A DNA stretch of 64,000 nucleotides. It comes from Diadema setosum. Taxonomy: Eukaryota > Echinodermata > Echinoidea > Diadematoida > Diadematidae. Below are positions 4,053 to 51,492 of the stretch, in pieces. The notes under the pieces were generated by a model. That model was given only the letters and a program-made list of their open reading frames with translations, had not been told where the DNA came from and ran no database searches. The position numbers and the translations under genes are program-made. Numbering within the stretch: position 1 is the stretch's first letter; each line of letters starts with the position of its first letter. The DNA is taken from contig NC_092694.1 of the NCBI RefSeq assembly GCF_964275005.1, positions 37,508,471 to 37,572,470 of the forward strand, in the 5' to 3' direction.

Positions 4053-4241
4053 TCACCAGTAGAAGTTTGTGGAGATGAAAGAAGCAGCCGCACTGAGCCA
4101 CCCTCCCGAGTTCTTGTCCGGCTGACCAATGCGCTTGACTGCCTTGTCCTTGATGGGGCTGTCCTCTTCAGGGAGGTAGTCAGGGAGGACGTCGTTCTCC
4201 TTGTTGGCAAGAGCGGGGTTGGCACCAAAAGACAGAATCAC
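4053..4241 (-). CDS. ARMC1: ARMC1 terminal coding exon 7
   Basis: Residues 214-275 and the stop codon TGA at 4053-4055. It carries LPDYLPEEDSP and GGWLSAAASFISTNFYW, the diagnostic ARMC1 C-terminus. The acceptor is TTTTTTGGCAG. Confidence 0.94.
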   Translation of the reverse strand: MILSFGANPALANKENDVLPDYLPEEDSPIKDKAVKRIGQPDKNSGGWLSAAASFISTNFYW

Positions 4242-7200
4242 CTGCCAAAAAAAAGGGGCAGAGGAATACCATGAGCTTGTAATGCAGGCTTTGATTTTTT
4301 TTTCATGCAAACTCTTTTGATAGGAAACTTTCTTTTATCACAGTGGAAACCTTCTATTTGGTCTGAAAACTCCTCTCTGTTTGGGGGTGGGGGTAGGGAT
4401 GGTATGATGTGCAAGGTCAATGTGCTTTGCAAGTTGATCTGAGTAAGTCTAAACGATGTTGCAATTAGAAACTGCTTCCCTTGAGTTATAAAGGTAATTT
4501 TCTTCAACTTTTGGAAACAAGCAGTTAGGTTAGAATGCTGCATAATTCACATCTATTGAGCTACTTCTCAGTAAAGGTTCAAGTTTGACAACTTTTGACA
4601 ACTGCAACTAAAAGTCATCTCCCTATCATGCATGTTCTCAATTGCTGTATTCGAGAAATGGGGAAACTGAATTGCAATTTACAGATTTGCCTCAAACAGC
4701 CTGAATGATTGGCAACAAGAAGTAATATTCTTCAAAACTTTGTTTCAGTGCCAAGGCCAGAAAAAGTTTTTGAAATTCTCATGGCATCATAGATGCTGAT
4801 GCACTTGTTGTAATTTTTGTTCTGGTGCTGTTATTTATTTGATTTAAAAGTTGTAGAGCTCTTGACATGCTATAAAATATTGCCATGGATGAGGCAGGGG
4901 GTGGGTTAGTCATAATTTCTACTCTCGACTTTGACATTCTTACCTCTTCTCCATGCTCATTCTTGATGACCTGTTCAGCTGACATTGTCTCGGTCTTGGC
5001 AATTGCAACAACTAGCACCTGTAAACAATTGAATGGAATTTGTGAATTAGTTTGATAGCCTCACCCACTGTATTCTTAATGTGCCAACTAACAACTATAG
5101 TATAACATTTCTACATTACTGTTACCCATAAATATGAGACATGTCCTCATTTCTTTTTCTTTATTGCTCAGGAGAACTTATAATATTCTTCTTTATTTTA
5201 TTCAATGCTAGACTTGAGATTTCATTTGATGTACAGAAATGAAAAAAAAAAAAGTTACTGAATATAAGTGCAATTAGGACAATTCAATGGAACAATGAAA
5301 TTAAAGTGTCAATGGCTCAGCTCAAAAGAAGACAAAGAATATAAGTGCAGAAAATTATTGAACATTGCATCCTCTAGGCAACTCATCCATTGAGGTGACA
5401 TGACGATTGCATTAAAGGGATAGTACAGTATTGGTGGAGATGAGAATTGGGCTTTTAACTTTTGCGAGATACCAAGAAAACACTTATGATATAGTACAGA
5501 GCATACCACTTGAAGAGGAATTCAAAGTTTATTTGATGAAAATCGGGTTTTGAATGATGGAAACATCCAAAAACAAAGTAAAACAAAGCGATCATAATTA
5601 AGTGTGGGTCCCACACTTTATTAGAATCGCTTTTTTGGGGGGGATATCTCGGCCATTTAAAAACCAATTTTCATCACATAAACGTTGAATTCCTCAGAGA
5701 ATTACACGCTCTTTCATATTTCATAAGAGGTTTCTCATTATCTCACCAAAAATGTTAGAAACCTAAAATTAGGTCTCAACCAAAACTATACGATCCCTTT
5801 AATTATTACATCATTGTCTTCCCTTCTGTAGTCAATTATTTTAACACAGCAGCAGGTGCAATACAAATGCAATGACACGATTTATACGATCACACAAGTG
5901 AGAATAGAAGAATTGGTATTTAACCCTCTGCGTCCCCACAGTCAGTACCTGTCCGTAGGTTTGTATGTGAAATTTGTGTACATTTGACTCATTGGTACAG
6001 ACAGGCTTAAATAAACTAACCTCTGGCTTCAGGTCCATCTTGGTCCTCACCATGCATCGCTTCTTGATGAGGTCAAAGGTGAAGCTGACGATGCCTTTGA
6101 CCTGTAGTAAAGCCTCCTCACAGGTCCTCCGACATTCCTGGATGAATATGCACAAGAAAACGTATATTAGGTCACTGGTGCAACACACTCTTAGTACATG
6201 TAGTTACTTGGAGAATGGGACAGCATGAAACTGAAAACATCATAATCATACTTTAAATGTATCCTTTTCTCAAGATAGTTAACTTTCTAAACCTTTATTT
6301 CTAAAGTAAAAGACTTGGATTCTTCAGCACATACTGATAGTTTGATGCATTGTATATCATTGCATAAAGAAAGAAGGGAGAAGAAAAGGAAACAGATGGG
6401 GGAGGAGGAAAAGGAAGGCATGAAAGAGTGGAGGAGAAAACAGAGGACAAAAGAGAAGGAAAAATGAAGAGGCAGAGAGAAGATAAAGAAAGTGGGAAGA
6501 GGAGGAGGAAGAGATGAAGAGGAGAAGACAAGGAAACAATAAGATGGAAAAGTGGAGAATGAAAAAGAAGAAGAAAAGGAGAAGGAGGAAGAGAAAGAGA
6601 TGGAGATAAGACAAGATGAAGGAAATGGGAGGAAGAGAAAAGAAGAATCAGGAAGGAGAGATAAAGAGACGAGGATGAGGGGACATTGAGAATCTGGAGA
6701 AAGTGGAGAAGGAACAAAAAGCAGAGGAGGAGGAGGAAACAAACTGCACAATGAGAAGAGTGAAGAACAAATAAAGAGAGAAAAAGATCTACACTCACAA
6801 TGTCATTGAGACCGTCAATCTGAAAAGTCATGGTCTTCCATTTCTTGTTGTGAGTGCCCACAAAGAACTTGTTGGGGTGTTTTGGGTTGAGTCGGCCGCC
6901 GGCTGCTCGGGCCGTGTTCTGACTCTCCTTCAGGGGGCTCGGGGACGGTGGGGCCAGGAGACGCTTGTGAATGCTCTTCGCTAGATTCCTGCTCTTAGTA
7001 TCACTGTGAGGGCTTCATGATGTGATAATACAGTGGACTCCCGTTAAAATGAAGTCCTCGGGACCAGCAGTTTTCTTTCGTTACATCAAAATTTCATTAT
7101 AACCGAACAAATTATCAATAAAATACATAGAGCAGATAATGTTGCATTCTGAATTTTCACTTCATTGTGACCGGAATTTCATTATTTTTGTTATAACAGG

Positions 7201-8989
7201 AGTGCACTGTAGAAGAGTTGGCCTACTATACATAACTAGCACCCATTTAGGGGAGCATTCTTCAGCTGTGGCATCATGCGCAAACATCCATGAACAACAA
7301 CACAGTCAAGCAAATGATAACACAATCCCCCAAAATAAACGACAAAACAAAAGGAAAGAAAAACAAAAAGGATCTAGGAACAAAAGGTCTTCTGTAATCA
7401 ATCCTATGGCATATGTAACAATCTTATTAATGCATCAATTGCAAAGTTGACAAAAGACAAAAGACAAAATTTACTTCAGCATGACAGTTCTTTCAAATTC
7501 ATCAATATTTCATTCTTGCACATTTGCCACAAGACATGCATTTCATCATCTAAGCTGAAGGAAGGGAAAAGTATTTATAAAGAAAGCAACGAGGGTGACT
7601 ATGCAGAACTCAGCTATTACAGTCACATTGCACTGACTTTATGAAAAGAATTTTTACAGAAATTTCTCACTCAGACTTTCTTATTCCTTAGTTGTTGTTG
7701 TTTTTTTTTGTCTATAATCAAGAATTTTTGGCTAACATTTTGTAGTTTCATATTTCGCCAAACAACTGTAAGTCAATCCTTCACTGGCAGGTGGCAGGAG
7801 ATTTTCATATTTGCTACTTCTGTCCACTGACTCACCTGTTGGCTACTGCTTCCAGACTGACCAGCATACCCAGCTCTCTCTTCATAATGGGCCGGTTGAT
7901 GGAGCTCTCTGCCAGGTAGTGGAGGGCCTGAGTGGACATTTCAAAAATTTACATATTATACAAATTAGAAGGATGAGTGAGGTGAAATTTAATCACCTTA
8001 AATCTCATTATAATAAGGTTCCATTGTAAACTGCTAGTTCAGTGGAACACGCACACTCATCTTTAGCAATTCTGTGTAATGAATGACAAACGGGGCATTA
8101 CAGAAAATATTTATTCCATTTGCCCCCGAATGGGCGTTTGGGCAAAGGGTCCATTTTTTGACCAGGCTAGTTGCTATCCATTGATACTGGTCCATTGGTG
8201 AGTTTGGTGACATTATTTTTTAATTAATTAATCATCATTATTATCATTATATGTCAGGGAGATTCCAAAAATGGGAGTAGGGCGTAATCAGAAATATGTA
8301 GGGCCTACAAATAGGCCTACTTGTGTACATGTAACTCAGTACACAATGTAAACAAATCAGGGAGATGTTGTTTGCCACTGAATTAAAAATACTTAAAAAT
8401 AATATGTGACATATTTGGTCAAAGCATAGTTTCTTGGTTCCAAATGTTTCAATCATGTATACAACGGCACATTCTGTCAGCTATGGAGACAAGAAGAGTA
8501 CAAGCTCATCTCTCTCCATTTCAATATTCATTTAGCTATCTTTTAGGGGGAAAAAAAAAACTTGTTCTTTTTTCCTAATAAGGTACTCACCTCGAGGGCA
8601 GTGGATACAACAGTTGGGTCATCATTGTCTAAAAATAGCACCAACCCAGGCAGGCACCCCTGGTCCTAAGTAAGAGGGAGAGACGGAAAAATAAAATAAA
8701 TTTGAAGAGAAGGTTAGAGATGTTGGAATCCAATCCAATCAAAAATGAATTTTAAATCAAATTGTTGAAATCACTTTGTCATTGCTGTTATCTCTGGGTA
8801 AGAGGGGTACAATTCCCCCTTGTTTAACTGCAGTGACCCCAGTCTATAGATCTACATGTATATTATTTTTATCAACTGACAGTGCAAGGATTTGAATGAC
8901 CGTGCATACTGTACCTTCACAATTTTTTCCCTGTTTATCGGGTCTCTCGCTAAATCCCTCAGCTGTTTCACCACATCCTGAACGGCCAT
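4053..8989 (-). CDS. ARMC1: ARMC1, armadillo repeat-containing protein 1 (7 coding exons, 275 aa)
   Basis: Joined exons (minus): 8989-8915, 8665-8591, 7927-7836, 7003-6799, 6137-6021, 5018-4944, 4241-4053. All junctions are GT-AG and in phase, giving 275 residues against about 282 in vertebrates. The N-terminal part (about 1-110) is an armadillo-like helical region that includes DQGCLPGLVLF, typical of ARMC1. Residues about 139-180 (KTMTFQIDGLNDI, then CEEALLQVKGIVSFTF) form the HMA-like fold; no CxxC metal motif is present. The tail carries LPDYLPEEDSP (232-242) and ends SFISTNFYW, both close to vertebrate ARMC1. ARMC1 is a cytosolic and outer-mitochondrial-membrane protein linked to mitochondrial distribution. 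The ATG is preceded by an in-frame TAA and lines up with the conserved VVNQLRDLA segment. Residues 87-135 are Pro/Ser/Arg-rich and diverged. The gene is divergent from MTFR1. Confidence 0.93.
4944..5018 (-). CDS. ARMC1: ARMC1 coding exon 6
   Basis: Residues 189-213, VLVVAIAKTETMSAEQVIKN then EHGEE, matching the vertebrate QQVVKSESGEE region. The acceptor is TTTACAG and the donor GAG|GTAAGA. Confidence 0.9.
5412..5802 (+). repeat. TTAA-ended palindromic repeat family B, copy 1
   Basis: 391 bp in ARMC1 intron 6 (between exons 6137-6021 and 5018-4944), from TTAAAGGGATAGTACAG to a matching inverted end CGATCCCTTTAA. Inner arms also pair (ATATCTCGGCCATTT and similar). Other copies lie near 15.1, 16.4, 23.6, 39.2 and 59.3 kb. 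Confidence 0.85.
6021..6137 (-). CDS. ARMC1: ARMC1 coding exon 5
   Basis: Residues 150-188, ECRRTCEEALLQVKGIVSF through DLKPE, the core of the HMA-like domain. The acceptor is CATCCAG and the donor GAG|GTTAGT; phase 0. Confidence 0.92.
6363..6790 (+). repeat. 400-bp purine-rich tract
   Basis: It is almost entirely A and G on the plus strand (for example GAGGAGGAAAAGGAAGG), inside ARMC1 intron 4. It produces spurious Ser/Phe/Leu-rich open frames on the minus strand. Confidence 0.9.
6799..7003 (-). CDS. ARMC1: ARMC1 coding exon 4
   Basis: Residues 81-149. It starts SDTKSRNLAKSIHKRLL, continues through a Pro/Ser/Arg/Gly-rich linker, and ends FFVGTHNKKWKTM...DGLNDI, the first strand of the HMA-like fold. 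The acceptor is CCTCACAG and the donor ATT|GTGAGT. Confidence 0.88.
7029..7211 (+). mobile_element. TA-flanked pogo-like MITE, copy C1
   Basis: Starts TA-CAGTGGACTCCCGTT and ends GGAGTGCACTG-TA. It is about 180 bp with inverted ends and internal repeats of TTATAACCGAA type. It lies next to ARMC1 exon 4. Confidence 0.65.
7836..7927 (-). CDS. ARMC1: ARMC1 coding exon 3
   Basis: Encodes ALHYLAESSINRPIMKRELG through EAVAN, matching the vertebrate ALRYLAE...MKGELGMMLSL segment. The donor AACAG|GTGAGT leaves two bases of a split Ser codon. Confidence 0.92.
8591..8665 (-). CDS. ARMC1: ARMC1 coding exon 2
   Basis: Encodes residues 26-50, DQGCLPGLVLFLDNDDPTVV and on to ALE. The acceptor is CTTAG and the donor GAG|GTGAGT, phase 0 on both sides. 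This is the most conserved stretch of the gene. Confidence 0.93.
8915..8989 (-). CDS. ARMC1: ARMC1 coding exon 1 (start codon)
   Basis: Encodes residues 1-25, MAVQDVVKQLRDLARDPINR and on to KIVK. The donor reads AAG|GTACAG. An in-frame TAA lies just upstream of the ATG, which fixes the start. Confidence 0.9.
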
Positions 8990-9126: not shown

Positions 9127-9139
9127 ACTCCTGAAAATG
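9127..9139 (+). repeat. poly(dG) run
   Basis: A run of about 13 G in ARMC1 intron 1, followed by a poly(T) run near 9188-9199. Confidence 0.8.
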
Positions 9140-9444
9140 GCCTGGGGGGGGGGGGGGAGGGCATTTCATGAAGCTTTTGCCAGATATTTTTTTTTTTTCC
9201 TGACAAACTGTTAACGTTAGAGTTAAGCTAACCATTACTTTAAATCCTGTACCTTGCATGTAAACTCATACATTGTATAACTTCTGTCTAGGCTCTAGTA
9301 TTGGCTGAGAATTTGTCCAACAAATTTGTCAGACAAAACGCTTCATGAAATGCCCCCAGCCACCCAGGTCCCCATGCCCAGGCCATGGGCATAATTTATG
9401 TAACAGTGAGTTACAGACTAATAAACAATAACAATCACATGGAC

Positions 9445-9512
9445 TATACACAGCCCAGTCGCTGTAAGTATTCGCACAGCGTAGCCCTACTAACAGCGTC
9501 TGGTCGGGCTAA
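9445..9512 (+). repeat. short shared module F, copy 1
   Basis: TATACACAGCCCAGTCGCTG and then TTCGCACAGC, TAACAGCGTCTGG, TCGGGCTA also occur at 61695-61768. It lies in ARMC1 intron 1, upstream of the start codon. Confidence 0.7.
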
Positions 9513-9795
9513 TGGCAGATTCATGTTTGTAACAATACTAACATGATCAAGTTTCAACATTATTCATGGCTCATGCAGGTAGAAGTCTAACGTTAATGAA
9601 AATTGTCCCAATAATGCAATATGGACAAAAAATCTCTAACGGTTACTGGGTATAGACATCTAACAAAAAGTTAGCTAGTGTTAGCATGACAAACGAGGAC
9701 AGAACTCTTAAATTCAATCTTACACGTTACTAACAACAGTAGAACAACGTTTCTACGCTGCTGTGTACAAAAAAAAAAAGAAGAAAGAAACCTAC

Positions 9796-9935
9796 CTCAA
9801 ACTGTAGTGTGGTAAACACGTTAGAACGCACTCAACTGCAGGACCTTACAGTTACACTACAGATCAGTAGAATTCGAGATTGGAGCTGGAGCTCGAGGGG
9901 GACAGTCTCCGACGGCGAGACTGCAGTAGGTTCAC
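9796..9935 (-). other. ARMC1: probable ARMC1 5' UTR exon
   Basis: On the minus strand a good donor, TTTGAG|GTAGGT, sits at 9796/9795 next to the divergent promoter. A TATA-like AGTTATAAAACT (minus strand, about 9969-9980) would place transcription start near 9,940. The right boundary is an estimate. An intron would then join this exon to the UTR just upstream of the ATG at 8989. Confidence 0.4.
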
Positions 9936-10165
9936 CTGTAGGCCTACTGTAGTGCCTTCAAAATGGTAGTTTTATAACTTTTTGAAGCTCTGCGTCTTCT
10001 CTTCTGCGAAGGATCACAAACCAGTCTTGATGGAGTTCCCTAGATCTGGTAAAATACCTCAAAATTGTGCGATGGAGAAGGTGCGACGACAGTCTACAGC
10101 CGTGTGATGAATACCTTTTCAGTGATATGCGAATAAAAGTGTGCGAGAAGCCATCCGGTCATTTA

Positions 10166-10175
10166 AAAATGGCGG
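10166..10175 (+). promoter_or_regulatory. YY1-like site
   Basis: AAAATGGCGG matches the core of the YY1 motif (AANATGGCGGC) that is typical of promoter-proximal positions. It lies between the two predicted start sites. Confidence 0.45.
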
Positions 10176-10197
10176 AGTATTGTTATTCTCTGCGCTG

Positions 10198-10233
10198 ATT
10201 GGATAGGGTGTTCGAGAGCAACGTTCTCATTGG
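10198..10233. promoter_or_regulatory. paired NF-Y (CCAAT) boxes
   Basis: ATTGG at 10198-10202 and again at 10229-10233, both the reverse complement of CCAAT. The start-to-start spacing of 31 bp is about three helical turns, as often seen for paired NF-Y sites. Confidence 0.55.
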
Positions 10234-10298
10234 CTTATCTCGACGCGGCTCTTTAAATCTTACGATGCCTCAATGAGAGATCTGTGCATTGACGTACG

Positions 10299-10305
10299 TA
10301 TAAAG
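10299..10305 (+). promoter_or_regulatory. MTFR1: TATA-like box for MTFR1
   Basis: TATAAAG lies about 30 bp upstream of the predicted MTFR1 first exon and downstream of the CCAAT pair. Confidence 0.4.
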
Positions 10306-10329
10306 ACCGTGCCAAAACTATCGCTGAAA

Positions 10330-10392
10330 GATTGAAGATATCCCATTGCACCGAAGGAACACTCTGAATCAGGATCCATCGAAATCTGAAAG
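10330..10392 (+). other. MTFR1: probable MTFR1 5' UTR exon
   Basis: A donor CTGAAAG|GTATTT ends at 10392, about 90 bp after the TATA-like box. The start is estimated. A second possible donor, GTGCAG|GTGAGT, lies at 10712, so alternative leader exons are possible. The next exon begins at 11355. Confidence 0.4.
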
Positions 10393-11354
10393 GTATTTTT
10401 TCAATTTCTTTTCGTACCAATCATGTGAAAAATTATTTGTCACAAGTAAATTAGTCTATTTGATATGGAATTGGAAACACTGCCATCGCGAAGCGTGGCT
10501 ATATTGCATGGTCCCATACACTTCAATTCGCGAGGTAGTTTGTTGTTTTACTTTAGAGCGTAAGGATTCACGAAAGAATTTAACGTTACGAATAATGAAT
10601 TAATGAGCTTTCAGATTGAGATTAAGATCACAAATAATGTGATGTAAGGATCCTTGTTTTGACAATGAATGCAGTAAAGTTGTAAACAAAGATATTTCGT
10701 GAGCAGGTGCAGGTGAGTATGAATGGATCTAATTCCCTCAATTATACTTTATAGGCCTGTAATTACTAGTAGGCCCTATCTAACGTTATAGTCTATGATG
10801 AAACACCCAAGTGAAATGTTTGTACAGACAGACTTAGGGCCTACTAGTAGTAGGACCTATGTAGGCCTATTTGGAAATTCCTAACAATGAATTATTGTGA
10901 TATGGTGTCTCTGTTGCCCAAGTTGCTTGCCATAAGCTGCCTAGGGCCTATATCTTCTTTTGTTATCAGTCAATATTTACCAAGATTTATAGAACTAAAC
11001 AAAGAGCCCTTCTCTGTAGAAATTTTTGAGTGATTGTGTCCAATCTACATGTGGGGATTTATGGTTCTTTCTCTTTCTTTCCTTGCTGTTAATCTTCATC
11101 ATTCCATGATTTCTTCATTATTCTCATCTGATTTCATTCTGATTTCGATTTGATATGGCTAGTCGAGGGAGTGAAGAAATGCTTTTGAGAACTGTGAAAT
11201 TCATTAATCAATGTTTTTTTGTGTGTTTTTTTAACTTTCTTATGTGTTTTTTTTTTTTTTTTTTTTTTTTTTTGAAATCAGACTACAGATTTAGTGTATT
11301 ATGAGAGATTGTCTGCGACCATTTTAGTTTCTTACCTTGTTTATTACCACTCAG

Positions 11355-11457
11355 GTGAGTCGCTGTCACCAAGTTTGGGCCAATGTTGGATGCGGCCCTC
11401 GTCCACGTCATCAGAATGGTTCTTCAGCTGCTGCGGTTGGCTGATGAGCCCCAGGAG
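11355..11457 (+). CDS. MTFR1: MTFR1 first coding exon (coding from 11383)
   Basis: The acceptor has a pyrimidine-rich tract ending CACTCAG and the donor is CAGGAG|GTAATA. There are 28 bases of 5' UTR, then ATG at 11383 encoding MLDAALVHVIRMVLQLLRLA then DEPQE. The ML...IRMVxQ pattern matches human MTFR1 residues 1-14. It ends in phase 0, matching the exon at 12118. Confidence 0.8.
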
Positions 11458-14400
11458 GTAATAATTAGACACAAAGTATTCATCTAGATCAAACACAATT
11501 TGTAATGAGCATGAGGCTTGACAGTTTAGTGAAATAAAGGCTGGCTTGACAACAATGAATCCCAACTCCTCAGTACTGATGTTTATAAATATGTTGCTCC
11601 TCAAAATGAAGACAGAATGATCTATTGATAATCATAAGTTTATATTGTATCATACAATTATTGATACTCTACTTGTTACTGACATATTATGTTATGGGTA
11701 ATATTGAATCCCCTGCCTTCTGAAAGAGGTACAAGGTCAAGTGCTCTGTTATGCAAGGAAAGTAAACATACATGTTGGATTTTCTTTACATTTCATAACT
11801 TCAGTCATCCTATGCATGTGACATCACAAGCTGTAGTTGTCTTCTCATCCAGGGGTGGCGGCACTGAAACTTCAAAAATTCATAATTTGAGCGGATTGTC
11901 CAATTTTCCCCCAATTTTCACTGATGTGTTCTATCAATAGCTGCTTCTCCCATATGAAGGTTACGGTAACTTGTCCTTTAAGTTCACTGAATATAAAGAC
12001 GTATTTGAAAATTCTGACACCCTTGAGCAAAGTGTTTGTCGTCTAATAATAATAATAATAATAGCTTTGCTCATACTATACTATTCTTTCTTTTCTCTCC
12101 ACCTTAACTGCATGTAGGTCACTATGGGTTCTTCTCAGTGTCAGAAACGGCAGAAGAGGCGACGTCGCAGCCTGGTGCGAGCCATAGGATCAAGGCTGCC
12201 CCTAGCCCCCATCCACCGTGTCCACTTTCAGGTAGGTTGAATGATGTCATGGCATTCAAGATCAAGGGGCCAAGATTTGTGCAACACTATCTGTGGTAAC
12301 AGATGAAAACAGACAAACAAGTTGCACAATTCTTTGCATCAGGTTTTTATACAAATTGCATTAATATATTTGGATCTTTTGAGCCAACTTCTAGAAAAGA
12401 ATTGCAAAACTGTACCGTGTATATTTAGTGTACACTTAAAACTCAATTTTTCATTAGACCTCGATCCTGTTGCAACAAAAGATACACATACAATGTATGG
12501 TTAAAACATAAGTCAGACAATCAAATGTAGTTCCGGTATCATCCTGTCAGAATTGAGTATTCAGTGACTTATGTTTGATCTCAGCTTTTATACTAAATAG
12601 AGTCCAGCTGGTCTTTTTTTTTTTGGGGGGGGGGGGGTTATCAAGTCAAGAGGTTGGTTTTGAATGATTTTCTTGTCTTGACACTTTTCACTACTGACAC
12701 TGAATAATAATAATAATAATAATAATGGAGTCTTGTAATGCGCCATGTCTGTCACACAGTGGCACTCCTGGCGCAGAAAGGTAAGACCTCCTCTCACATT
12801 GTTCTTAATTTTCTCCTTATCCAAATAAATTTCATTATGTAAAGCTGACCAGCTAGGGCTTTCTTATTAGCATTAAAAAATGTATTGTGGTATGAAATTC
12901 AAGAAATGTTATCTGAAAGCTTTGATCCTTTAGACCTTTTAGCAGTATTTCTTCATTGGGAAAAAAAATGCATGCAATTCTAAAACTAGAAGTCCTGTCC
13001 AAAGCTTTAAGACAGGAAGAGGAGGTCTGTCCTCTATTTCTATCATGAGTGGTTGAAGCAATCTACTTGTGTGGAACGTGTCACTGCAGATTGTGCGCCG
13101 ATCTGAGCCGCCGCCCTGGCTGCACCGCCAGCCCCAGTTCTACGAGGAGGACTGCGCCCCAGTTCGGATCCCATCCCTGTCAGATCTCCCCTGGTTGCTC
13201 ATGGCCACGCCAGACAAGGAAATCCGATCTAGGTGAGCACAAGACCAACGGGATTTATCCAATATAGTAGAAGGAATTTGTGCAATTTTAACCATGTGGA
13301 GATTAGTCTGTCAGTGCACATCATTTTTTAGTAGATGTACAACTTGTATCTTTATGATCACACATTTGTCACAAGGCAGTGGTTTGAAAGTCAAAAGCAA
13401 AGAAGAAAAAATGAAATAATTCTTTGCAATGATTATACTGCGTAAACTTGATGTATTATTTAAGGTGTATATGTGCAAGTTTCACATTTTTGAACCAAAA
13501 TATGATTTTTACTGCCTCCGCCAACGAAGTGGCCAGAGGCATTATGTTTTCGGGTCGTCCGTCCGTCCGTACGTCCGTCCCGTTTTGTTTTTGTTGATAT
13601 CTCAAGAACCATGAGGTGGTTTTGCATCAAACTTGGTATGAGGGTATATCCTGGGGGGATAATACTTTGTTTCGATTTTAGGGTCACGGGGTCAAAGGTC
13701 AAAGGTCACAGGTTATTTTGTGAAAAAAAGGTTGAAATTTCATGTTTTTCTCCATATCTCGCAAATGGGTCAAGGTATCTTCATGGAACTTAGTATATAT
13801 GCATGTACCGATAGGCAGTGATTATCTAGGGAAGTTGGGGGTCATGGGGCAAAGGTCAGGGGGTCAAATGTCGAGGTCAACTCCTCAAAATATCACTACT
13901 TTTCTTATATTTATGCAATGCCTGAAGGATTTTTTTTAAAACTTGATGTATGCATGTATAACCCAATATATATTCTGTGGGAAGTTTCTTGCCAAAAGGT
14001 CAAAGGTCAAGTGAAAGTGCTAAATTGCACTTCTTCCTCCATATCTCAAAAGTAACTCAAGGTATTATCATGAAACTTACATATTTATGCATGTTCTGCC
14101 TAACAGTGATTCTCTTTGGAACTGTGGGGTCAAAGGTCAAAGGCCAGGTTTAGATAATACTATTTTACCATTTGATACTGAAATTATACTTTTTCTCAAT
14201 ACCTTGACAATTACTCATTGATGCATAAACTTGTAAAAGGGTCAAAAGTCAAGTGAAAATCATCAGTTCCCCCAAATACCTGCACTCTGACGTTTTAATC
14301 ATTCATCCAATTGAACCTAGTTCTAGGAAAGTGAACATTCAGCACATTTGTGGCAAACCTGTCATTTTGATATTTTGCCAATTGTGTGAAACTGTCATCA

Positions 14401-17400
14401 CACATTGTCAAGACATTGTACTATAGACCTATTAGGAGAACCATGCATTATGGCGGAGGCATACACCAGTCGCCGTAGCGACATTTCTAGTTTTTAATTT
14501 TTAATTTTTAATTTTTTTTTTGGAGGGGGGGAGGGGTCATTTACTGCACATTGCATTTTTTCTTGTAATTTTCAGAGGTTAGCAGCCATATATTCTCACT
14601 CACAGTATTTGTACTTGTCCTGCATTATATATGAAACATAGGTCAGAATGCAGAACCATTGGCAGAAAGAAGCGGAGGAAGACCATAGCGGTGCGCCCCC
14701 TGAACCACACCCCACCCCGCCACTCCTCCAGCCCCCAGACACCGATGTCTCGACACAACTCCCTCCCCAGCAGCCCCAACTCCAGCTTTGCTGCCACGCC
14801 CACGGTTAGGGGCGTGGACCTCTCGGAGACCAGTCCCACCAAGGTGGATGATCCTGTTGCCATGAAGAAGATCAGTGCGTTGGAGGATGAACTAGAGAAG
14901 CTAAGAGCGCAGATTGCCATGATTGTCACATTACAATCAACATCAGCAGGTGACTTTCTTGTACTATTGTTTCTGTATGAGAGCCAAAATATGCCACTTT
15001 ATTGTACAATGGCACTTGGTTTGCTGAAATACAGGCAAGCATTACATATTGACAAGCCAATGAGATGTTTGTAACCATGGTGAGCTCTTCTTCCACAATC
15101 TTTTCGTAGCTTGAACATTGTGTGTTGTAACTTAAAGGGATGGTATTAGTATTGGTTGAGATGAGGATCCAGCTTTTAACTTTTTATAGGAACCAATTTT
15201 TATTGATATGGAATGTTAAACAATTCTAAGAGGAATTAAAATCCATAGATGAAAACCGGTGTTGAAACACAAAGCGATCCTTGTAAAAGATTGGTCCCGC
15301 CTTTTATGAGGGTAGCTTTGTTTTGGATATATCTCAGCCATTTCAAAACCAATGTTCATCAAATAAACTTTGAATTCCTCTTAGAATTATATGTTCTAAC
15401 ATATTTCATAAGAGGTTTCTCATCATCTCAAAAAATTATCTTCCAAACAACATTCAAAACCTGAAGCCCCATCTCACCAAATTGTAGGAGGATGTCAGTG
15501 TATCCTCTTTGGACATGACAATCTCTAGTGCTTAGTTTATTTGTTTAACAAGAAATAAAAGATATGCAACAGAGCCCTGCACATCAAAGCTCTGTAGAAT
15601 TTTGACTGCCATGTGTTACATCAGTGGATTTTTTTTTTTTTTTCATTAATAAGAAAATTCTTATTGGGTTGGAGCAAAAATAAGAGAAACAAGCATCACA
15701 AAAGAAACCAATTCACAAACAAGTTTATCAATATCTCTCTTGGTTGAATGGAGTAGAAAAAGTGAAACCTAATACCCAATTATGAGGGAATAACTATTTC
15801 ATAGCAGCAATCATGAAGTAGCTGCCATCGGAATAAGATGGTAATTCAATTAAAATGATCCCAGGTTTCATCTGTAATTAGAATTTTACTTCCAGAAGTG
15901 AAAAGACATACTTGCATGCTGTTTTCTTTTTTATGTTGCAGATTCAGGTTTCTCAACACCAGCCAGCCGCATGAGCCTAGCCCCTGTCATGGCCACACCT
16001 CCCCCTCCTCCCCCACCTCCATTCCCTGCTGGGGCACCCCCTCCACCCCCACCCCCTTGTGGGGCACCTCCCCCTCCCCCACCCCCACCACCACCTGTTT
16101 CAACTCCGAAGCTGAATGCCATCGAGCTCATCAAACAGGTGAGAAAAAAAGGAACGAAGGCAAATGATATAGTTCTGAATATTTCTTGCTCTCAGTACCA
16201 AAGTGTGATGTCATAGCCATTCATTGACATGGAAACTTGCACAAAACAACCTCACCTGCCCAATATCAACACTATTGGTGTTAACCTGTTGAGGACGAGT
16301 CCCGAGCATACTCGGGCAGGGGTCTGTGGAAAATGTCTGTTGTAGCAAAATTAGCCCGTCCTCAACAGGTTTAAGGGATCAAATAGTTTTGGTTGAGACC
16401 TAACATCAGACCTGGTGGGATAGTGAGAAACCTCTTATGAAATATAAAAGAGCATGTAATTTCAAGAAGGAGTCAACGTTTATTTGATGAATATTTGTCT
16501 TGAATTAGCCGAGATATCCAAAAAAAGCGATCCTAATAAAATTGACAGGCCATGACTTTTATTAGGATCTCTTTGCTCTTCCTTGTTTCAAAACCGATTT
16601 TCATCAAATAAACTTTTGATTCCCCTTAGAATTGTATGCTCTTTAACATTTCATAGAGTGGTTTCTAAATACATGTACATGTATCTTACAAAACATTACA
16701 AGCTGAATCCTTACCTCAACCAGTGCTGTACAGTCCCTTTAATAATGCTCACACATTGTTCCAACCCAAGCTATAGCAATAGACGACATCATCATTTTGA
16801 TTCTCTATTATGTTCAGCTTTTGTCAAAATCTTTCAACTACAATCCACATCACAACATTGCATTCCCCTGTCTGATGAAAACGAAGAAACAAAGAAAGTG
16901 CACATGTATGTGGAATTCCTTTTAAGGACATCTATTTTTGCTGTATTCACCCATTCGAGTAGTGTTCATATGTGTCTGATATTGCCATACATATTTCAGC
17001 CATGCATAATTTTTTTTTTTCTCAATCAGTCTTAGTTTACATAGTGCTTATCACTTATTGTTTGTATTCACCACATTCATTTACATTTGTAAATGGTTTA
17101 TGGTTCATAAAGACTTGGTCGCTTCCTAAGAATTAGAGAGGACAAAGAAAGAATCAACTTCAGCAAGAGTTGCACATTTTCAAAATACTCAGCTTGGGCT
17201 ATCTGTGAAATAAAAATCATGCTATGCTAGTTACTGTTTCATTAACTCTTTTTTGCTTGCTTTCCTCTCGGTGATCACAGAACCGCGATAAGAACAAGAA
17301 CAAGCCCAAGGCCCAGGCCGGGAGCGGGATGCCCAACATGGCCGACGTTCTCAAGGGACTCGGGACCGTCAAACTGAAATCTGTTGCGAGGTAAGCTAAC

Positions 17401-19930
17401 CTCTGACCCATGGTTTGTTCTCGAGTTCTTCAAATTCTCTCTCCTTCGTATGACTGAATTCATAGCTTGTAAAGAATTACACGTGTAGTAACTCTCAACA
17501 AAATTCATAAGTTCCACAGCTTAAAAATGAAATGGCAAGTTTGATTTTTAAAATCAGACTCTTGGTGTCATTATTCGATGCAATGTCTTTGTTTTGTGTG
17601 TTTGTATATTTGTAAATGAAATTACAGTGCAATTCCTTCCTATTACCACAGCAAGACTAGTTTCGCTTTAAATACCTGAACTCTTGTCTTGGTCAGGATT
17701 TAGACTATGAAGTCTAAGCTTCTGATCAAATTTACTTCGTTGTGACTTATTTAACTCTTATGTTGCTTTGTGCCAGCTTTCTTAGATGGTATACTGTTTG
17801 AATTAGCCGTGGGAGACACATGGTAAAAAATCAGTTTCATGGGGCCTTCTTTTTTCGTTCATCTTGTTGACCCCAGTATTAATTACTTGAACAGCCCATT
17901 CCATCCTTAAATTTCTCAGATTGGGCATGACTTGACCTTTGACCTTTTCCATGTCACAGGTCACCCGGAGGCACACCCATCCGCCAGCCACCCAGGCAGA
18001 CTGACCACACGGACCCGGCGTCCATCATCGCTCGGGCCCTCAAGAAGAAGTTTGCCCAGGCCCGACTCAGCTGCAGCCCCACGGCCAACAAGGAGAACAT
18101 GGGCTCACCGAGCAGCAAATCCAGTCCTGCAAAGCACAACAGCCCTATAAAGGTACCATTCTAGAATGTGGGATCATAGGAGAAGTGCTATTGATGTACA
18201 ATGTAGCTGAAAGTAATATTAACCCTAACTAGGCCGGGCTATTTAGGTAGATCATAGAGCCGGGGGGCCTCCCAGGCCCCCCCTCCAGATCTCGGCCGTC
18301 GACCGCGCGATCGCGACGAAAATTGGCACACACATTGCCTATGGTGTAATCTAAAGTACTACGAAGTTAGATTTTTAAAAAATTGTCATTTATGCTAAAT
18401 TATGCTAATTTATGCATAATGATGCTGAAATCGGACAATTTGGTATAAATCACTAAATAAAGCTCGAAATGGGCACATTTTTTTGTGTAAATATTCTTTT
18501 TAGTGTCCTAAGCAAATATAAGAAAAAAAAAAATTGAGCTATCTGAAAAAAATTTCTTAAGTATTTTATTGTTTTTTTGAATTTCTTATGTATTTCTTTG
18601 TTTTTTTTACTTTATGTTTTTCATTGTTTTTTCGATGAAACTTGTCCGCGACATTGTTCCGAACAAGAAAATGTGTTATTAATTGATTTTAATCAATAAA
18701 ACCCCAAAATAATCATGCTTTTATGAAATTTGACTGTAAGCACAGTTTCCATTGAAATTGTACCCGAATTCACGTTTTTGAGTAATTTTTGGTATGACAT
18801 ACATGTACATATTTATGCGAAACTTCGGAACCGCGCGCCCGGGCATTGCAAATTTGGTGTCAAAAGATGCGGGAGACTCGACAGAAAAAAGTCATGAAAC
18901 GTCGCGGCGATAGCTTTTCACGTTAGCGATACATCGCACGGAACGTCGAGGGGGGGGGGCCTCGGAGGCCACCCCCCCCCCCCCCCCCCCCCGGCCTAGT
19001 TAGGGTTAAAGGCATAATTTACCATTTGCAGATGAAACCAAAAACCAGCACTAGTGCTTTGAAATAGTTCTAAAATGTGAGTTAGGGATAGAAACAATTA
19101 ATGTAAAAATTTGAATTGGTATAATCGATGTTCAGTATTGTTAAATGCACAAAGTGTGAACAATAGTTATAATAAAAATGTTTCCAGACTAAACAGTCTA
19201 CAGTTATGGTTTATAGAGAAAAATACTGATATCTCCTTATATTTAAGGCTTTATTGCAAAAATCTTATATGGTTGGATGTTTTGTGGTACAACAGACCTA
19301 CGCATATGCATCAAATGTGATATCTTGAATAAACTTTTCAAGTTACCTTGTCTCGTCTTACACATTTTTGTACAGAAAATTTAGTTTGCATGCAGTAGTT
19401 GTACTACACATGTAATTGTAGGTCAGGCAAATTTAACCATAGAATTCCACCATACTCTATGTGGCTCACCCAGTGATATTTATTCTGAAATTTGAATGTG
19501 ACTGCAAACCATTCTAATGGAAAGCTCTATCCAGAGACCTCTTTGTTGTACTTACACTCATTAATATACAGCATCCGCTATGAATTTGTCTCCCTATTGT
19601 GCATGACAAAAGTTTAGACACATTTCACCTGCCCAGCGGAAGGGGCCCTAGCATGAAATTTCACCCCCAAACTGAATTTTTGTGAGACATAATTTGACAA
19701 AGTTTTGAAAGCTTTTTCATAATAATGTGATCATCATTTTTGTGTCATTTTTTGAACCCGCAAGCTTCGGCGCCCTTATGCCGGGCAGGCACCGATTTCT
19801 TGTTAGTCTTATCCTCCTCTTTCTTTCAATGGTTTCCCACTGTTAGTTTGGACCCCACCTCCTGAAGCCCACCAACAGAGCCAAGCCTAACATCAGGCAG
19901 CCCCGCCCCCTGGCTGACGTCAATGCGTGA
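11383..19930 (+). CDS. MTFR1: MTFR1-family mitochondrial fission regulator (8 coding exons, 407 aa)
   Basis: Joined exons: 11383-11457, 12118-12231, 13090-13232, 14642-14949, 15942-16138, 17281-17390, 17960-18152, 19847-19930. Every junction is GT-AG and phases agree, giving 407 aa against about 333 in human MTFR1. Residues 1-25 (ML......VIRMVLQ) match the MTFR1 start. RSLVRAIGS and RVHFQ (residues 26-63) match the conserved YGSSRSIVRKIG...RVQFQ segment. A coiled coil (KKISALEDELEKLRAQIAMI) spans about 186-205, and a proline-rich block with runs of 8, 7 and 10 prolines spans 233-265. Next come GMPNMADVLK, DPASIIARALKKKFA and a C-terminal FGPHLLKPT. Family members localise to mitochondria and promote fragmentation. 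Invertebrates usually have one gene, so it is equally orthologous to MTFR1, MTFR1L and MTFR2. Confidence 0.92.
11690..11980 (-). repeat. repeat family G, copy 1
   Basis: Shares GTAAT-TT-CCCC-GCCTTCTGAAAGAGG and a terminal GGTAACTTGTCCTTTAA with the element at 40178-40535. It lies in MTFR1 intron 2 (between coding exons 1 and 2). Confidence 0.5.
12118..12231 (+). CDS. MTFR1: MTFR1 coding exon 2
   Basis: Encodes VTMGSSQC, a basic run KRQKRRRRSLVRAIG, and ends HRVHFQ. The acceptor is CATGTAG and the donor CAG|GTAGGT. The basic stretch may form part of the mitochondrial targeting region. Confidence 0.9.
13090..13232 (+). CDS. MTFR1: MTFR1 coding exon 3
   Basis: Encodes IVRRSEPPPWLHRQPQFYEE through IPSLSDLPWLLM...KEIRS. 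The acceptor is CACTGCAG and the donor TCTAG|GTGAGC, leaving two bases of a split Arg codon. Confidence 0.87.
13511..14493 (+). repeat. CCTCCGCC...GGCGGAGG element with DR1 motifs
   Basis: About 980 bp in the intron between MTFR1 coding exons 3 and 4. It begins GCCTCCGCCAACG, then (CGTC/CGTA)n, and ends ATGGCGGAGGCATAC...ACATTTCTAGTTT. Inside are several blocks of GGGTCAAAGGTCAAAGGTCA type, separated by TCTCAAAAGTAACTCAAGGT-like units, so it is internally repetitive. Confidence 0.75.
14642..14949 (+). CDS. MTFR1: MTFR1 coding exon 4 (coiled coil)
   Basis: Encodes a Ser/Pro/Arg-rich segment with RHNSLPSSPNS, then VAMKKISALEDELEKLRAQI, the conserved coiled coil. The acceptor is AAACATAG and the donor CAGCAG|GTGACT. 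Confidence 0.92.
15132..15487 (+). repeat. TTAA-ended palindromic repeat family B, copy 2
   Basis: Begins TTAAAGGGATGG and carries the family's inner arms (ATATCTCAGCCATTTCAAAA and CATAAGAGGTTTCTCAT). The right end is eroded. It lies between MTFR1 coding exons 4 and 5. Confidence 0.75.
15942..16138 (+). CDS. MTFR1: MTFR1 coding exon 5 (polyproline)
   Basis: Encodes DSGFSTPASRMSLAPVM, then P8-FPAGA-P7-CGA-P10, then KLNAIELIKQ. The acceptor is TGTTGCAG and the donor CAG|GTGAGA. The layout resembles formin FH1 or EVH1/SH3/profilin ligands. Confidence 0.92.
16281..16374 (+). repeat. TTAA-ended hairpin repeat family A, copy 1
   Basis: TTAACCTGTTGAGGACGAG ... GTCCTCAACAGGTTTAA, with an inner CCCGAGCATACTCGGG. 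It directly abuts a family B copy. Confidence 0.85.
16371..16742 (+). repeat. TTAA-ended palindromic repeat family B, copy 3
   Basis: Starts at the TTAA that also ends the preceding hairpin repeat, and finishes TGTACAGTCCCTTTAA. The inner arms are conserved. Confidence 0.8.
17281..17390 (+). CDS. MTFR1: MTFR1 coding exon 6
   Basis: Encodes NRDKNKNKPKAQAGSGMPNM through GTVKLKSVAR, equivalent to the vertebrate [21 protein letters not shown] block. The acceptor is GATCACAG and the donor GCGAG|GTAAGC. Confidence 0.92.
17960..18152 (+). CDS. MTFR1: MTFR1 coding exon 7
   Basis: Encodes SPGGTPIRQPPRQTDHTDPA, then SIIARALKKKFAQARLS and a Ser/Pro/Lys-rich tail ending NSPIK. DPASIIARALKKKFA matches the vertebrate DPAALIAEALKKKFA block. 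The donor is AAG|GTACCA. Confidence 0.92.
18219..19009 (+). mobile_element. piggyBac-like non-autonomous element (TTAA, CCCTAACTAGGCCGG ends)
   Basis: 791 bp between TTAA (18219-18222) and TTAA (19006-19009). The inverted ends are CCCTAACTAGGCCGG and CCGGCCTAGTTAGGG, and inner GGCCTCC / GGAGGCC arms extend them. There is no transposase frame. The interior is AT-rich with a run of 21 C at 18972-18992. The right TTAA is also the first four bases of a family D repeat. Confidence 0.75.
19006..19350 (+). repeat. TTAA-ended repeat family D, copy 2
   Basis: TTAAAGGCATAATTTACC and following sequence align with 408-778, for example TATAATAAAAATGTTTCCAG and TATGGTTTATAGAGAAAA. The right end is eroded. 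Confidence 0.75.
19847..19930 (+). CDS. MTFR1: MTFR1 terminal coding exon 8
   Basis: Encodes 27 residues, FGPHLLKPTNRAKPNIRQPR then PLADVNA, with stop TGA at 19928-19930. The start matches the human C-terminal FGPHMLKPT. The acceptor is CACTGTTAG. Confidence 0.92.
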   Translation, partial: FGPHLLKPTNRAKPNIRQPRPLADVNA

Positions 19931-24692: not shown

Positions 24693-24696
24693 AGCT

Positions 24697-35833: not shown

Positions 35834-38800
35834 CTATGGAGACAAGCAGACAATGAACAACATGAGATGTTTAACTTTAAACAGGAATGAATCAGGCTTA
35901 GTGTTTGTCTTCTCTCTAGACAACTTTGATCTCACATCACATACAACATCCATGGTCAGAAAAAGAAATAGCGATCTTGCAATACATTTTTGTCTTAATG
36001 AAAAGAATTTAGAACAGCAACCACAAGATGAAGGAATCATGGATATCTCTACTGAAAAACTGATATTGCAATACAGCAGATAATGTTTACAAATATGGGC
36101 AAAGTGAAGTCTTCTATTGTGCTCTGCCATGAAAGGATTCCACAACTTTGATATTCATCCAAAACACACTGGCCACACAATGAATTTCAACTTCGTATCA
36201 CATCGACACAACAAAGTGTCTCTTCTAGTTAATCACAACAGAAGATGAAAAACTCTCAATCTTGTGAAATTTTGATCTAGGAAGGATGTGAATTGTATTT
36301 GCCTACTTTGCATGGGAAAATGCAAGCAGGTTTTTCTTGTGGTGAATGATGATTACTGAATCAAGAGAGAAACAGCTGTGAGGAGTTTTTATCTTACCTG
36401 GGACATCTAGATCCTTTCTCCGCCCCCTCTCCACCATCTTCTTCTGGATGAAGGGAGATCCCTTCTCCCTCACTCCGTCCTTGCCCTCCCCCGGTGCCAG
36501 GAGTGAGACGGAGTACCCTTCCCTCCTAGCGTGGATTGACGCTGGAGGACTGGTGGGCCCCGACACCAATCTCCTGGTGGAGCTGCACCCCTCCGTGGGC
36601 CTCACGAGGAGACTGGTAGGGGTGGCCTTTGTCCGCTGCTCCAGGACACCGGCCAAGTCGCGGTGTCCGCTGCTCGGCGACAGCGCCGTCTTCATGAAGT
36701 GCTTCGAGTTGCGCTGGAGGATGCTGTTGTGCTCGGAGTACATGTGGAGACCACGCTCTGGCCAGTGTGGGATCTCTGACCGGTCATGTTGCTTGTTGTG
36801 CGACATGTTGTGATGGAGATGGGAGGTGGATTTTAGCTCCACCGGCACGGCAAAGTCCAGGTTGTTGTTGATGCCGTGGCCGAGTTTGGGGATGGCAGCG
36901 CTGGGCGGTTCCGTTTGGCGCAGACTGCCATCATGGAGACCCGCAGTGGGGTGGCTGCACCTTAGAGATGGGTTGGCACGTTGCAGTAGGGGTGACTCGA
37001 TGACCTCGCGGGGACTACCAAGGGGACTCCGGGCATCCACCGTCGGACTCCTCGGAGATTTCTCAATCTTCTCCCACGGGTCATCAAACCTGATGTTCTT
37101 TCTCAATGTGTTGGGAGAGCGGTGCAGTCGCAGACTAAAGTCCAATTGCCTGTTGCCTACGTAGCTCCCTTGCAGCATATTTTCCGTTGCGCTCTTGACG
37201 CGCTTGTTGACCTTTGGCGACCTCGCATCCTGCTCTTTTGCCCCGAGCGCGGACCGCATCGACACGGCGCTCACGGAGCTGGCACTGCGCAGATTGTCGG
37301 CACTTTGAGAGTGGGCGCTCATTGCGGTAGAATCTGACAATGTTACATCAATAGTCCTATGTAGAGCACGCTGTACCTTGGGGGAGAGCACCGCCGACAG
37401 AGGGCGCTCTTTTTCGGTATGCGCTTGGTGAGGCCTAGCATGGCCGGTCTCCCTGATTGCACGAGGTTTGTGTCTATCAGCCCTTGGTAGGACGTGGCTC
37501 TCCTTTGCCTTGACCGATGCGTCATCCTTCGAACTGAGCTTCAACAATTTGCTCTCCGGCTCAACAAACTCAGCGCTCTTTGCCGCGTTCTCTTCGGCCG
37601 GCTTTGGAGGGGGCTCGAGGTTTTCCTCGGGCTGACTCGGTGAGTCTGTTTTGCTGGTGGGACTGTGAATTGCACTGGTTTGACTGACGGCTGCCTCCTT
37701 CTGCACAGCCTCCTTCTCTTCTTCCTCCTTCTGTTTCTCCTTATTCCTTCTCTCTGTCCACACCTTCTTGTTCTCGTGCATGTTGTGCAGCATTTCCTGA
37801 GAGAGGTCTGTAGCGAGGAATCGCGCCCAGTTCGAGAAAAGTGGTTCCACGACAAACCCGATGAACCCTGGGGACAAAAGAAACAGAAAGAAATCTCCTT
37901 AATATATGAACAAGAAGCATAATGCCCTGGCCCCTGCCTAGATGGGGAAACATATACAATGCTTTAGATCATATCCCTGAATCATTCTGAACCAATCACA
38001 AGATTGAGACAAATTAAAGTTGGAAGCAAATGGCCTACACTCCCACTGAGAAAGCAATTCTTCTTCTCATTCTCTATCATTCTACCATTTCTTAACAGCT
38101 CTTGAAAAGTGAGAGGGGAAGTGAGCAGAAGAGTGAGTTAAGCAATTCCCATTCAAATTAATAAATCCTTGCATAAAGTTGCTTTCATTGTAATTGAATG
38201 ACAAACTGCCCTACATCGACGCTAAATTTGTCAATCAGTTACAATAAATTAAAAAAAAAAAACATGATGGAAGAATTTCATCAATTTGAATTACCCTTCA
38301 TAGATGTATAAAGCACAGATTATTATGTGCTTAAGTACATTTTAGTAGCAATGATTTAAAAAAAAAAATGATATAGAAAAAAAAAAAGGATAAGAACCAG
38401 CACTGGTTGTCAGGAAAAAGTCCAGTAGTCTAGTGAATATGACACCAGTCTAGTAATCAGGAGATCCTTGATTCAAGTCCAGCCTGAGTACAAGTTATGC
38501 ATGCCCATGATTTTTTTTTTTAAATCATGGAAAATACTACAATACTGAATAATCAGTGCATATTTACATTGATGAAGGGCAATTTGTCAATCAGTTGCAA
38601 TTCTTCATGGCTTCAAAGTCTCTAGATTTACTTCCAACAAGTCTAAAGATTTGGCACCTACCGCATTGTATCTGAGGAATTGTCGTTGTCACCCTGTCAC
38701 AGTTCATAGAAACTGGAAGTCGCTTCAACTTTTCTTGATCACCTGCAACAACGGATGAAAAAATACACACTTAAAGATTAATCTACGCACCTCTGCAGTA

Positions 38801-41800
38801 TACCTATTTGTCCCCCAAAAATGTGAATGTGCATGGAACTGCAGTATAGAGACATTACGTCTCCAGGTATTTGATTTTGAGTTAATCAATCCTAGAGCTG
38901 CTTTTGATTTTGCAACCAATCACATATAGCATGCCGAATACCGAGGCCCGTTCTTATAGGTTTCATAGAATGTGATCACGCCGCTGCAGATTTTCTGTGA
39001 GCTTTTCAAACAAATGTGAAGACATGTTTTCCTCGCACTGGATTAATGACGTATCTCACGCTTAGCCCTTTTTGCGCCAGGGACTCTTGACAATGTGTAC
39101 AATGCTATTTGGTTTTTTGTGCCAATTGGCACTCAAATCACTCAAAAGCTATTACAGAGGAGAATCATTTCAGTTGGGCTTAAAGGGACTGTACAGTACT
39201 GGTTGAGGTGGGGATTCATGTTTTGAACATTCCTAAGTGAGATAATGAGAAACCTCTTCTGAAATATGAAAGAGCATGTAATTTTAAGAAGGATTCAATG
39301 TTTATTTGATGAAAATTGGTTTTCAAATGGCTAAGATATCAACAAAAGTGATAATAATAAAAGGCGACAGGCCACGCCTTTTATTAGGATCTCTTTGTTT
39401 CACCTTGTTTTTGGATATCTCAGCCATTTCAAAACCGATTTTCATCAAATAAACTTTTGATACCCCTTAGAATTGCATGCTCTTTGACATCTCATAGAGT
39501 GGTTTCTGAATATCTCGCAAAATGTTAAATGCTAAATCCCACCTCAACCAGAACTGTACACACCCTTTAAAGCCCTCCATCTGCACCTAAGATTTAACAA
39601 GTTTCCATAGAGTTTAAACATACGGTAGCACAATAGATTCCCACAGGAACTGCGTTAATAACAATCTACCTGGCTACAGCGAGGCTATGCAACTGTCTGC
39701 AATCATATTAATCTCAAATTACATCATAAACATGTTTTAGAGCTGCACTCCGCCCCATTTTTGCTTTTAAACACGTTGGATAGTTCCTCTTCAAACAAAT
39801 AACAAGTGACAAAACCTGTTGTCTAGATGGTACCAGTCTTCCCAAGAAGTAGAATTATGAGAAGAACACTTTACGTATTCCAGTAATACTAGAAAAAGTT
39901 AAACACATTCATCCAAAGCTTGCTTGTGCATCTGCATCGTTGCCATGACAACCCTTCATCTGACATCTCACCTTGTCTGAAGAATTCCTCGGACACCAGG
40001 TTCCCCCACTGCTCCGTGATCTGCCACTGTCGACATGGGTTGCAGATATCGGCGCACTTCAGCGCAATCTGGTCGGAGGCAAGACAAACAACATTAGGAT
40101 GTTGCAATGTTCAAGAGCCAATCAATGATCAAAGGCCCTGTCCTTCTTGGTTGCATACTGTAAATGTGAAACAGTCTCTAAAGGACAAGTTCACCTTTAT
40201 ATACATGGGGATTGAGTGAATGCAGCGACATTAGTAGAACACAACAGTGAGCGTTTGGGGAAAATCTGACAATCCGTTCAGAAGTTATGAATCTGCGCAG
40301 TCACTGCTGGATGAGAAGACTGTTACAGTGTATGATGTCACATGCGTAAAATGATATAGGGAAAATATAAAGAGAATTTCACAAAATTTTACTTTTTGAA
40401 AAAAGTGTACATTTCCTCGACTTGTCACTGACGTATGTTAAGGGTAATGTTATTCCCCTTGACTTCTGAAAGAGGGAAGTCAAGTGACCTTTTATTAAGC
40501 CAGAAATGTGAAAATATGTTGAATTTTCTTTTAATGTTGAAATTCTATGAGCATTTCACAAAAAATGATACATGCTAACACACACATTCACAGACACACA
40601 AATTCTCATATATTCTGTGTACTGTATTAATTTTGTCGAATGAAAATTCACAATCTCAGACATAACAATTCATCAACCATGAAATTAAGATGCAAAATTC
40701 ATCTCACTGAAAATGAATGCAAAAATTACTTGCATGCACTATTTCTTCTTTGATAGTTATCTACACCATGTCTCATATACACTGTATATGGATTATGCAG
40801 ACTTTTACCCATTTTCCATGCATCAACTCTTTTCCTAGACACATACGAAATCTCCCTGCTCCTTTTGCTTTCATTGTTACTGTCATCACGGAATTACAAT
40901 TTGGGGCATAAAAAGTCATTTTAATGTACATCATCATCAGCTACATTATGTAAAAGCGCTAGGTGCTAGAATGACACTTGTTGCAACTGTCGGGATGTTT
41001 GATTAAAGTATCGACATCATCACAAATATGAGATTGACAGAGCGTATTCCTCTTCCATTAGCGTAATCCTTGGTGATGTCATCTGGAGGGGTCGCCATGA
41101 CAACGACCGTCAACCCTCATCTCGAGGGATTTTCAGAGAGAGAAACTTACTTGCATAATGAATTTCCTAGTTTCGTGACGCTTGAGAGAGAAGTCCTTCT
41201 TGTCGAGTTGCCTCTGCGGAAAGAGCGACAAAAGTGGAAGAGGGTCAAGGAAAGAAGACGGAACAAGAAAAACTCGAAAAATGGCACATCAAATTCTCAG
41301 AATGGCTTTCCATCAATGGGCCCAGTGAATCCTGAGCACACCACACACGGGATTTTTACAACATTGTCTGATGCTTAAAGAAGTCTTCACTGCTGGGAAC
41401 ATTAATCTCTCAGACTTGTTTTGAAAAAAAAAGATGAAATAAACACATTTAAACTTCTCTCCCATCCGAAACCTCCTCACCAACCTTTTGCTTCTTAATC
41501 TCCCAACCCAAATAATAAGTTCTAAAAAAAGAGCTGGCTGCTGCATTCATCAACACCTGAATGAAAATGGCAGACTCTGATCTTCTCAAAATACTCAGCA
41601 GTCTCGCAAACTGATAAATTCTGGCAAACACAGATCAGAAGAAAATATGTTTTGGGAGATGTTCTGAAAAAAAAAGAAGAAAAGAATCTTGGCCTGTTAT
41701 TTCTACAACATTGACACATGTCTATTGTTAAACTCTGCTTCCATTAACACAATGAGGATGATAAGTCAGCAGCACATGATCAGCTTGTTTCATTTAAAAC

Positions 41801-44153: not shown

Positions 44154-44189
<36 letters not shown>

Positions 44190-51432: not shown

Positions 51433-51492
51433 CTGTGGCACAGAGGGGGAAAGGAGACAAAGAAAGGAAAATGATACTTTGAATCTATAACT

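Follow-up and report, generated by a model that had tools for sequence, protein, structure and literature searches.

A divergent ARMC1–MTFR gene pair with a putative compact promoter region in Diadema setosum

ARMC1, MTFR and divergent gene pairs in animals

ARMC1 has been reported to bind MTFR and to assemble it with MIRO (PMC11980836), which bears out the statement of an earlier note on this DNA that the two proteins work in a common mitochondrial complex. According to the same 2025 study, MTFR is degraded without ARMC1, and ARMC1 stabilises MTFR; in human cells, loss of ARMC1 lowers MTFR1, MTFR2 and MTFR1L, and ARMC1 carrying D37R gives no rescue. The study further describes an ARMC1 copy number that approximates the summed MTFR and MIRO paralogues, a strong effect of ARMC1 dose on mitochondrial distribution, and the placement of F76 of human MTFR1 in the MIRO pocket. 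Human iNeurons, which are stem-cell derived, show falling MTFR1 and MTFR2 together with rising MTFR1L (PMC11980836). The main text of that paper mentions neither synteny nor co-expression, and among the matches listed from a partial literature collection no title concerned ARMC1–MTFR adjacency.

On cattle chromosome 14 the listed gene order is ARMC1, MTFR1, an unnamed locus and PDE7A (PMC7601430), with ARMC1 at 31.70–31.72 Mb and PDE7A at 31.80–31.91 Mb (PMC10486602). In human, a deletion containing both ARMC1 and MTFR1 has been described (PMC4074351), and one SNP has been placed in print beside both genes. As for divergent pairs in general, bidirectional genes of animals are defined as adjacent genes on opposite strands with starts <1 kb apart (PMC2670823, PMC2423431). 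Their promoters feature CpG enrichment and CCAAT- and YY1-type motifs, and a TATA box is found in 9% of bidirectional versus 29% of unidirectional promoters (table in PMC4730256). Full conservation with fly was scored for only 12 divergent pairs of human (PMC2670823), so that a pair common to a distant animal would be unusual.

Here we describe a 64-kb stretch of D. setosum DNA (the window), in which orthologues of ARMC1 and MTFR lie head to head and PDE7 is the third gene. The arrangement is an ordinary divergent gene pair; what makes it interesting is that one partner stabilises the other, its client. It resembles animal bidirectional pairs in the adjacency and opposite strands of the genes, and the starts are probably <1 kb apart; CpG enrichment and a YY1-type motif are present here too, along with CCAAT-type boxes at chance level. 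By contrast, a TATA-like box, of which there is one in each direction, is atypical of such pairs, and two-way activity of the interval is putative. On balance, we favour the reading that ARMC1 and MTFR constitute an ancient divergent pair transcribed from one compact promoter region.

Coding models of the ARMC1 and MTFR orthologues

Stop-to-stop frames were listed in both halves of the window (from 40 residues and from 65 residues), candidate splice sites were scored, and exon chains were assembled manually and checked for reading frame and splice signals. This yielded two coding models:

4053..8989, minus strand: coding part of the ARMC1 orthologue, CDS from 8989 to 4053, 270 aa, GT-AG chain in frame
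8989–8915, 8665–8591, 7927–7836, 6988–6799, 6137–6021, 5018–4944, 4241–4053, minus strand: ARMC1 coding exons (n = 7)
11355..18164, plus strand: MTFR-family orthologue, CDS from 11383 to 18164, 383 aa, GT-AG chain in frame
11355–11457 (ATG at 11383), 12118–12231, 13090–13232, 14642–14949, 15942–16138, 17281–17390, 17960–18164, plus strand: MTFR exons with coding sequence (n = 7)

The minus-strand product matches the Pfam Arm family at 2.6e-5, above the cut-off, and HMA at 1e-4, where its 23.1 bits fall just below the cut-off of 24.8. It was aligned with a human ARMC1 sequence of 282 residues that has aspartate at positions 27, 37 and 49, giving 130 identities among 268 aligned residues, 138 mismatches and 16 gap positions. 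The human sequence used is supported by its agreement with the numbering in PMC11980836, both in D27, D37 and D49 and in the end at residue 282. These three aspartates belong to the MTFR interface of the human protein and, in the alignment, face D16, D26 and D38 of the D. setosum protein. The C-terminal tails correspond as well (WLSTAANFLSRSFYW in human ARMC1 with WLSAAASFISTNFYW here), and the predicted protein carries FYW at its C-terminal end. Thus, an Arm-type helical part, an HMA-like domain and the conserved C-terminal tail are all predicted, as befits a member of the ARMC1 family. Among 22 pattern matches in genome contigs and 7 in viral contigs, no relative of the ARMC1 protein was confirmed, as expected for an animal gene.

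The plus-strand product matches PF05308 (Mito_fiss_reg) at 3.5e-40, its 139.2 bits exceeding the cut-off of 26.3. Alignment with human MTFR1 gave 120 identities, 179 mismatches and 118 gap positions, conservation being poor outside short blocks; in one of the aligned segments, SLSDLPW is paired with SFADVGW, which contains F76 of the human protein. Since vertebrates have three paralogues (PMC11980836), we name the gene an MTFR-family orthologue and not MTFR1 in particular. A possible donor immediately ahead of the stop makes its last exon, stop and 3' end uncertain.

Both genes are real, adjacent, on opposite strands and transcribed outward, as in bidirectional pairs, with 2394 bp between their start codons. 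The head-to-head layout claimed in the earlier note, with ARMC1 on the minus and MTFR on the plus strand, therefore stands on coding models and Pfam matches, and its assignment of the second gene to MTFR1 holds at the level of the family. Compared with the ARMC1–MIRO–MTFR complex (PMC11980836), the proteins encoded here keep the family domains, the ARMC1 interface aspartates and the ARMC1 tail; their binding is a prediction.

Candidate first exons and the CpG profile of the interval

Three candidate features occupy the space between the two coding models:

9796..9950, minus strand: candidate non-coding exon 1 of ARMC1, with its 3' edge at donor 9796
9801..10700, no strand: candidate shared promoter region, CpG-enriched by CpG o/e
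10330..10712, plus strand: candidate non-coding exon 1 of MTFR, ending at donor 10392 (weak) or 10712 (strong)

The segment 9796..10392, in which the earlier note had placed a divergent promoter, was delimited by putative first-exon donors, and its two edges fared differently. On the left, the minus-strand ARMC1 donor at 9796 (GAG/gtaggt) scores 9.6, compared with a 99th percentile of 8.35 for plus-strand GT. On the right, the plus-strand MTFR candidate at 10392 scores a weak 4.3, so this edge is doubtful, and the CAG/gtgagt at 10712 reaches 13.1, well above the same percentile. If 9796 and either 10392 or 10712 are the true exon 1 donors, both first exons would lie within 0.6 to 0.9 kb. From these donors we infer the first exons, and the transcription starts are putative as well. 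When the putative exon 1 is joined to the ARMC1 ATG exon, the frame upstream of the start codon runs into a stop with no ATG in between; an ARMC1 reading frame extending into exon 1 was rejected.

CpG o/e is 0.78–1.43 in 400-bp windows starting from 9701 to 10301, compared with 0.50 for the whole window. The profile stands at 0.74–0.80 on the left, rises to 1.43 at 10201–10600 and drops to 0.15 at 10601–11000, so that the enriched stretch spans the interval and breaks off sharply near 10.6–10.7 kb. By o/e, 10201–10600 ranks eighth among 1272 windows; its raw count of 22 CpG is reached by 63 of them, which makes the peak a relative one that falls short of a classical island. The peak would fit an unmethylated promoter together with a first exon reaching about 10.7 kb, and enrichment up to that point would favour the 10712 donor.

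Candidate promoter motifs

Four motif features were located within the interval:

9971..9976, minus strand: TATAAA toward ARMC1, weak, absent from the earlier note
10166..10175, plus strand: YY1-type AAAATGGCGG, found by motif search
10198..10233, plus strand: pair of ATTGG (CCAAT-type) boxes 31 bp apart, starting at 10198 and 10229, with a third box at 9879
10299..10305, plus strand: TATAAAG toward MTFR, weak, one of 17 in the window

All elements named in the earlier note are present, and they carry unequal weight. AAAATGGCGG, which we take to be a YY1-type site, is the least chance-like element of the interval and uncommon in the window: AANATGGCGG occurs twice, compared with 0.37 expected, and 4 of 100 shuffles reach two. 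YY1-type sites in sense orientation often lie just downstream of the transcription start; if that applies here, MTFR would start near 10150 and not where its TATA-like box would put it. The ATG within the site opens a nine-codon frame (10169–10198, plus strand), a possible uORF if MTFR transcripts begin upstream.

The paired ATTGG boxes have little weight as promoter evidence, since their frequency is at chance level. ATTGG is under-represented in the window (126 observed versus 209 expected), at least three ATTGG/CCAAT occur in 11% of 597-bp windows (Poisson 0.115), and pairs 6–60 bp apart on either strand number 17, three of them, including the pair at this locus, with a spacing of 31 bp. 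The stricter pattern YYSATTGGYY fits a single box of the pair, and the window has 4 such sites, compared with 6.2 expected. We therefore rejected the ATTGG pair as evidence for the gene pair.

The TATA-like box toward MTFR likewise counts for little, given the 17 copies of TATAAAG. If each start lies 31 bp from its TATA element, the two TATA-like boxes would set the starts about 385 bp apart, near the 400 bp of the earlier note, and ARMC1 would begin at about 9945 if the minus-strand TATAAA is used. Seven outward TATAAA pairs 200–500 bp apart, the one at this locus included, occur in the window; consequently, this spacing is only a prediction, and the TATA box was rejected as evidence for the pair.

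Between 9796 and 10712 there is one CCGGAT and one TGACGT, and none of CCGGAA, GCGCATGC and GGGCGG, which we take to be ETS, NRF1 and GC-box motifs, respectively. A combination defined after the locus had been seen, namely ATGGCGG with two or more CCAAT-type boxes and a CpG o/e of at least 0.9, is found in 26 of 3170 600-bp windows, all of them here. A search of the 64-kb window with 4227 Rfam families gave no match at gathering level.

Proposed promoter sharing and conservation of gene order

In the reading that we favour, a CpG-enriched promoter region of the housekeeping type, roughly 0.4 to 0.9 kb long, would fire outward into ARMC1 and MTFR, each of which would consist of a non-coding first exon, an intron and the ATG exon onward. 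Open chromatin common to both genes would then lead to broad, roughly matched transcription. Matched dose would matter because, as others have shown in human cells, the ARMC1 protein keeps MTFR stable and assembles the ARMC1–MIRO–MTFR complex. Promoter sharing we infer from the single CpG-enriched stretch and the short gap between candidate first-exon donors, which make one promoter for both genes plausible; matched expression is a prediction, and the interval may hold two adjoining promoters. If one promoter region serves both genes in distant animals, transcription would already match the client to its stabiliser, and an animal with so compact a locus would offer an easy way of asking whether mitochondrial placement suffers once that link is broken.

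The third gene of the window bears on the age of the arrangement:

36303..50184, minus strand: PDE7 orthologue, in fragments, with a possible extra piece at 51287–51484 that has no Pfam match

PDEase_I was matched in two ORFs of this region. Fragments joined from five ORFs gave four PDE7A sequences in PDB as the best matches (1.7e-52 to 5.2e-52), the next being PDE4D (1.2e-27). A 531-residue frame at 36303–37898 on the minus strand comprises the end of the PDE7 catalytic domain followed by a charged, serine-rich stretch, possibly a very long C-terminal tail. With PDE7 as the third gene, the order ARMC1–MTFR–PDE7 matches that of cattle chromosome 14, a correspondence new here. The likeness lies in the three genes and their listed order, and it suggests an old arrangement; the layout of the pair is real and probably old. 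In human, ARMC1 lies on the minus, MTFR1 on the plus and PDE7A on the minus strand, with about 10 kb between ARMC1 and MTFR1, and PDE7B is close to MTFR2 on chromosome 6. A human start gap of that size would mean that tight promoter sharing is not general.

The same facts could reflect slow decay of gene order, in which ARMC1, MTFR and PDE7 adjoin as passengers and two independent promoters abut without selected co-regulation, an explanation that we hold to be somewhat unlikely. PDE7, which has no known role in the complex, is also kept in the block, so that adjacency alone is no proof of selection on the pair. Moreover, two core promoters would fit into the interval, its CCAAT and TATA elements occur at chance level, and the human gap points the same way. 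However, these neighbours are dose-dependent physical partners in human cells (PMC11980836), and their homologues are 2 of 30 honey bee genes listed as common to vertebrates and not found in fly, two mosquitoes, beetle, silkworm or worm (PMC2656531), which would be rare for a random neighbour.

The bee list hints at joint loss of ARMC1 and MTFR, bearing in mind that tblastn readily overlooks proteins that are short and divergent. In the same paper, 11 of 45 genes are scored as ubiquitous, mouse Mtfr1 and Armc1 among them, and the bee ARMC1 and MTFR genes are both scored as brain, as is over half of the bee list; 2610016C23Rik, the other mouse relative of the bee MTFR gene, is scored as brain/testis (PMC2656531). 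As support for matched expression, these scores are weak evidence, and the opposite course of MTFR1L in human iNeurons speaks against it.

Misplaced first exons, with ARMC1 starting near 9.0–9.2 kb or MTFR near 11.3 kb and 9796–10392 being the promoter of one gene, are highly improbable: the exon 1 calls do come from splice-site scores alone, and the acceptor directly upstream of the ARMC1 ATG has a score of only 4.8 (close to the 90th percentile for plus-strand AG), but CpG o/e peaks at about 9.8–10.6 kb and stays at 0.07–0.20 upstream of the MTFR ATG exon (10601–11300), and an in-frame stop precedes the MTFR ATG if its exon starts at acceptor 11355, so that a spliced untranslated leader is likely.

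Beyond a shared promoter region, the head-to-head placement of ARMC1 and MTFR could go back to an early bilaterian ancestor and have been kept because an unstable client and the protein that stabilises it need matched amounts, with lineages that drop one gene dropping the other too. We consider this extension doubtful; if true, genome layout would have foretold the ARMC1–MTFR complex long before its biochemical discovery.

Other features of the window

A CpG-dense stretch at 24601–25550 contains 30 to 33 CpG per 400 bp in its top windows, with o/e up to 1.56; its frames read as CRADAERMQSG-type repeats, and no recognised gene is tied to it. The putative intron 1 of ARMC1 harbours two further features. 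An inverted repeat at 9137–9386, with arms 9149–9178 and 9336–9365 that are 83% complementary and outer arms 9137–9153 and 9370–9386, is possibly a small MITE-like insertion. In addition, the 83 bases at 9429–9511 have a 79% identical copy 52 kb away at 61680–61768, which makes this segment a dispersed repeat.
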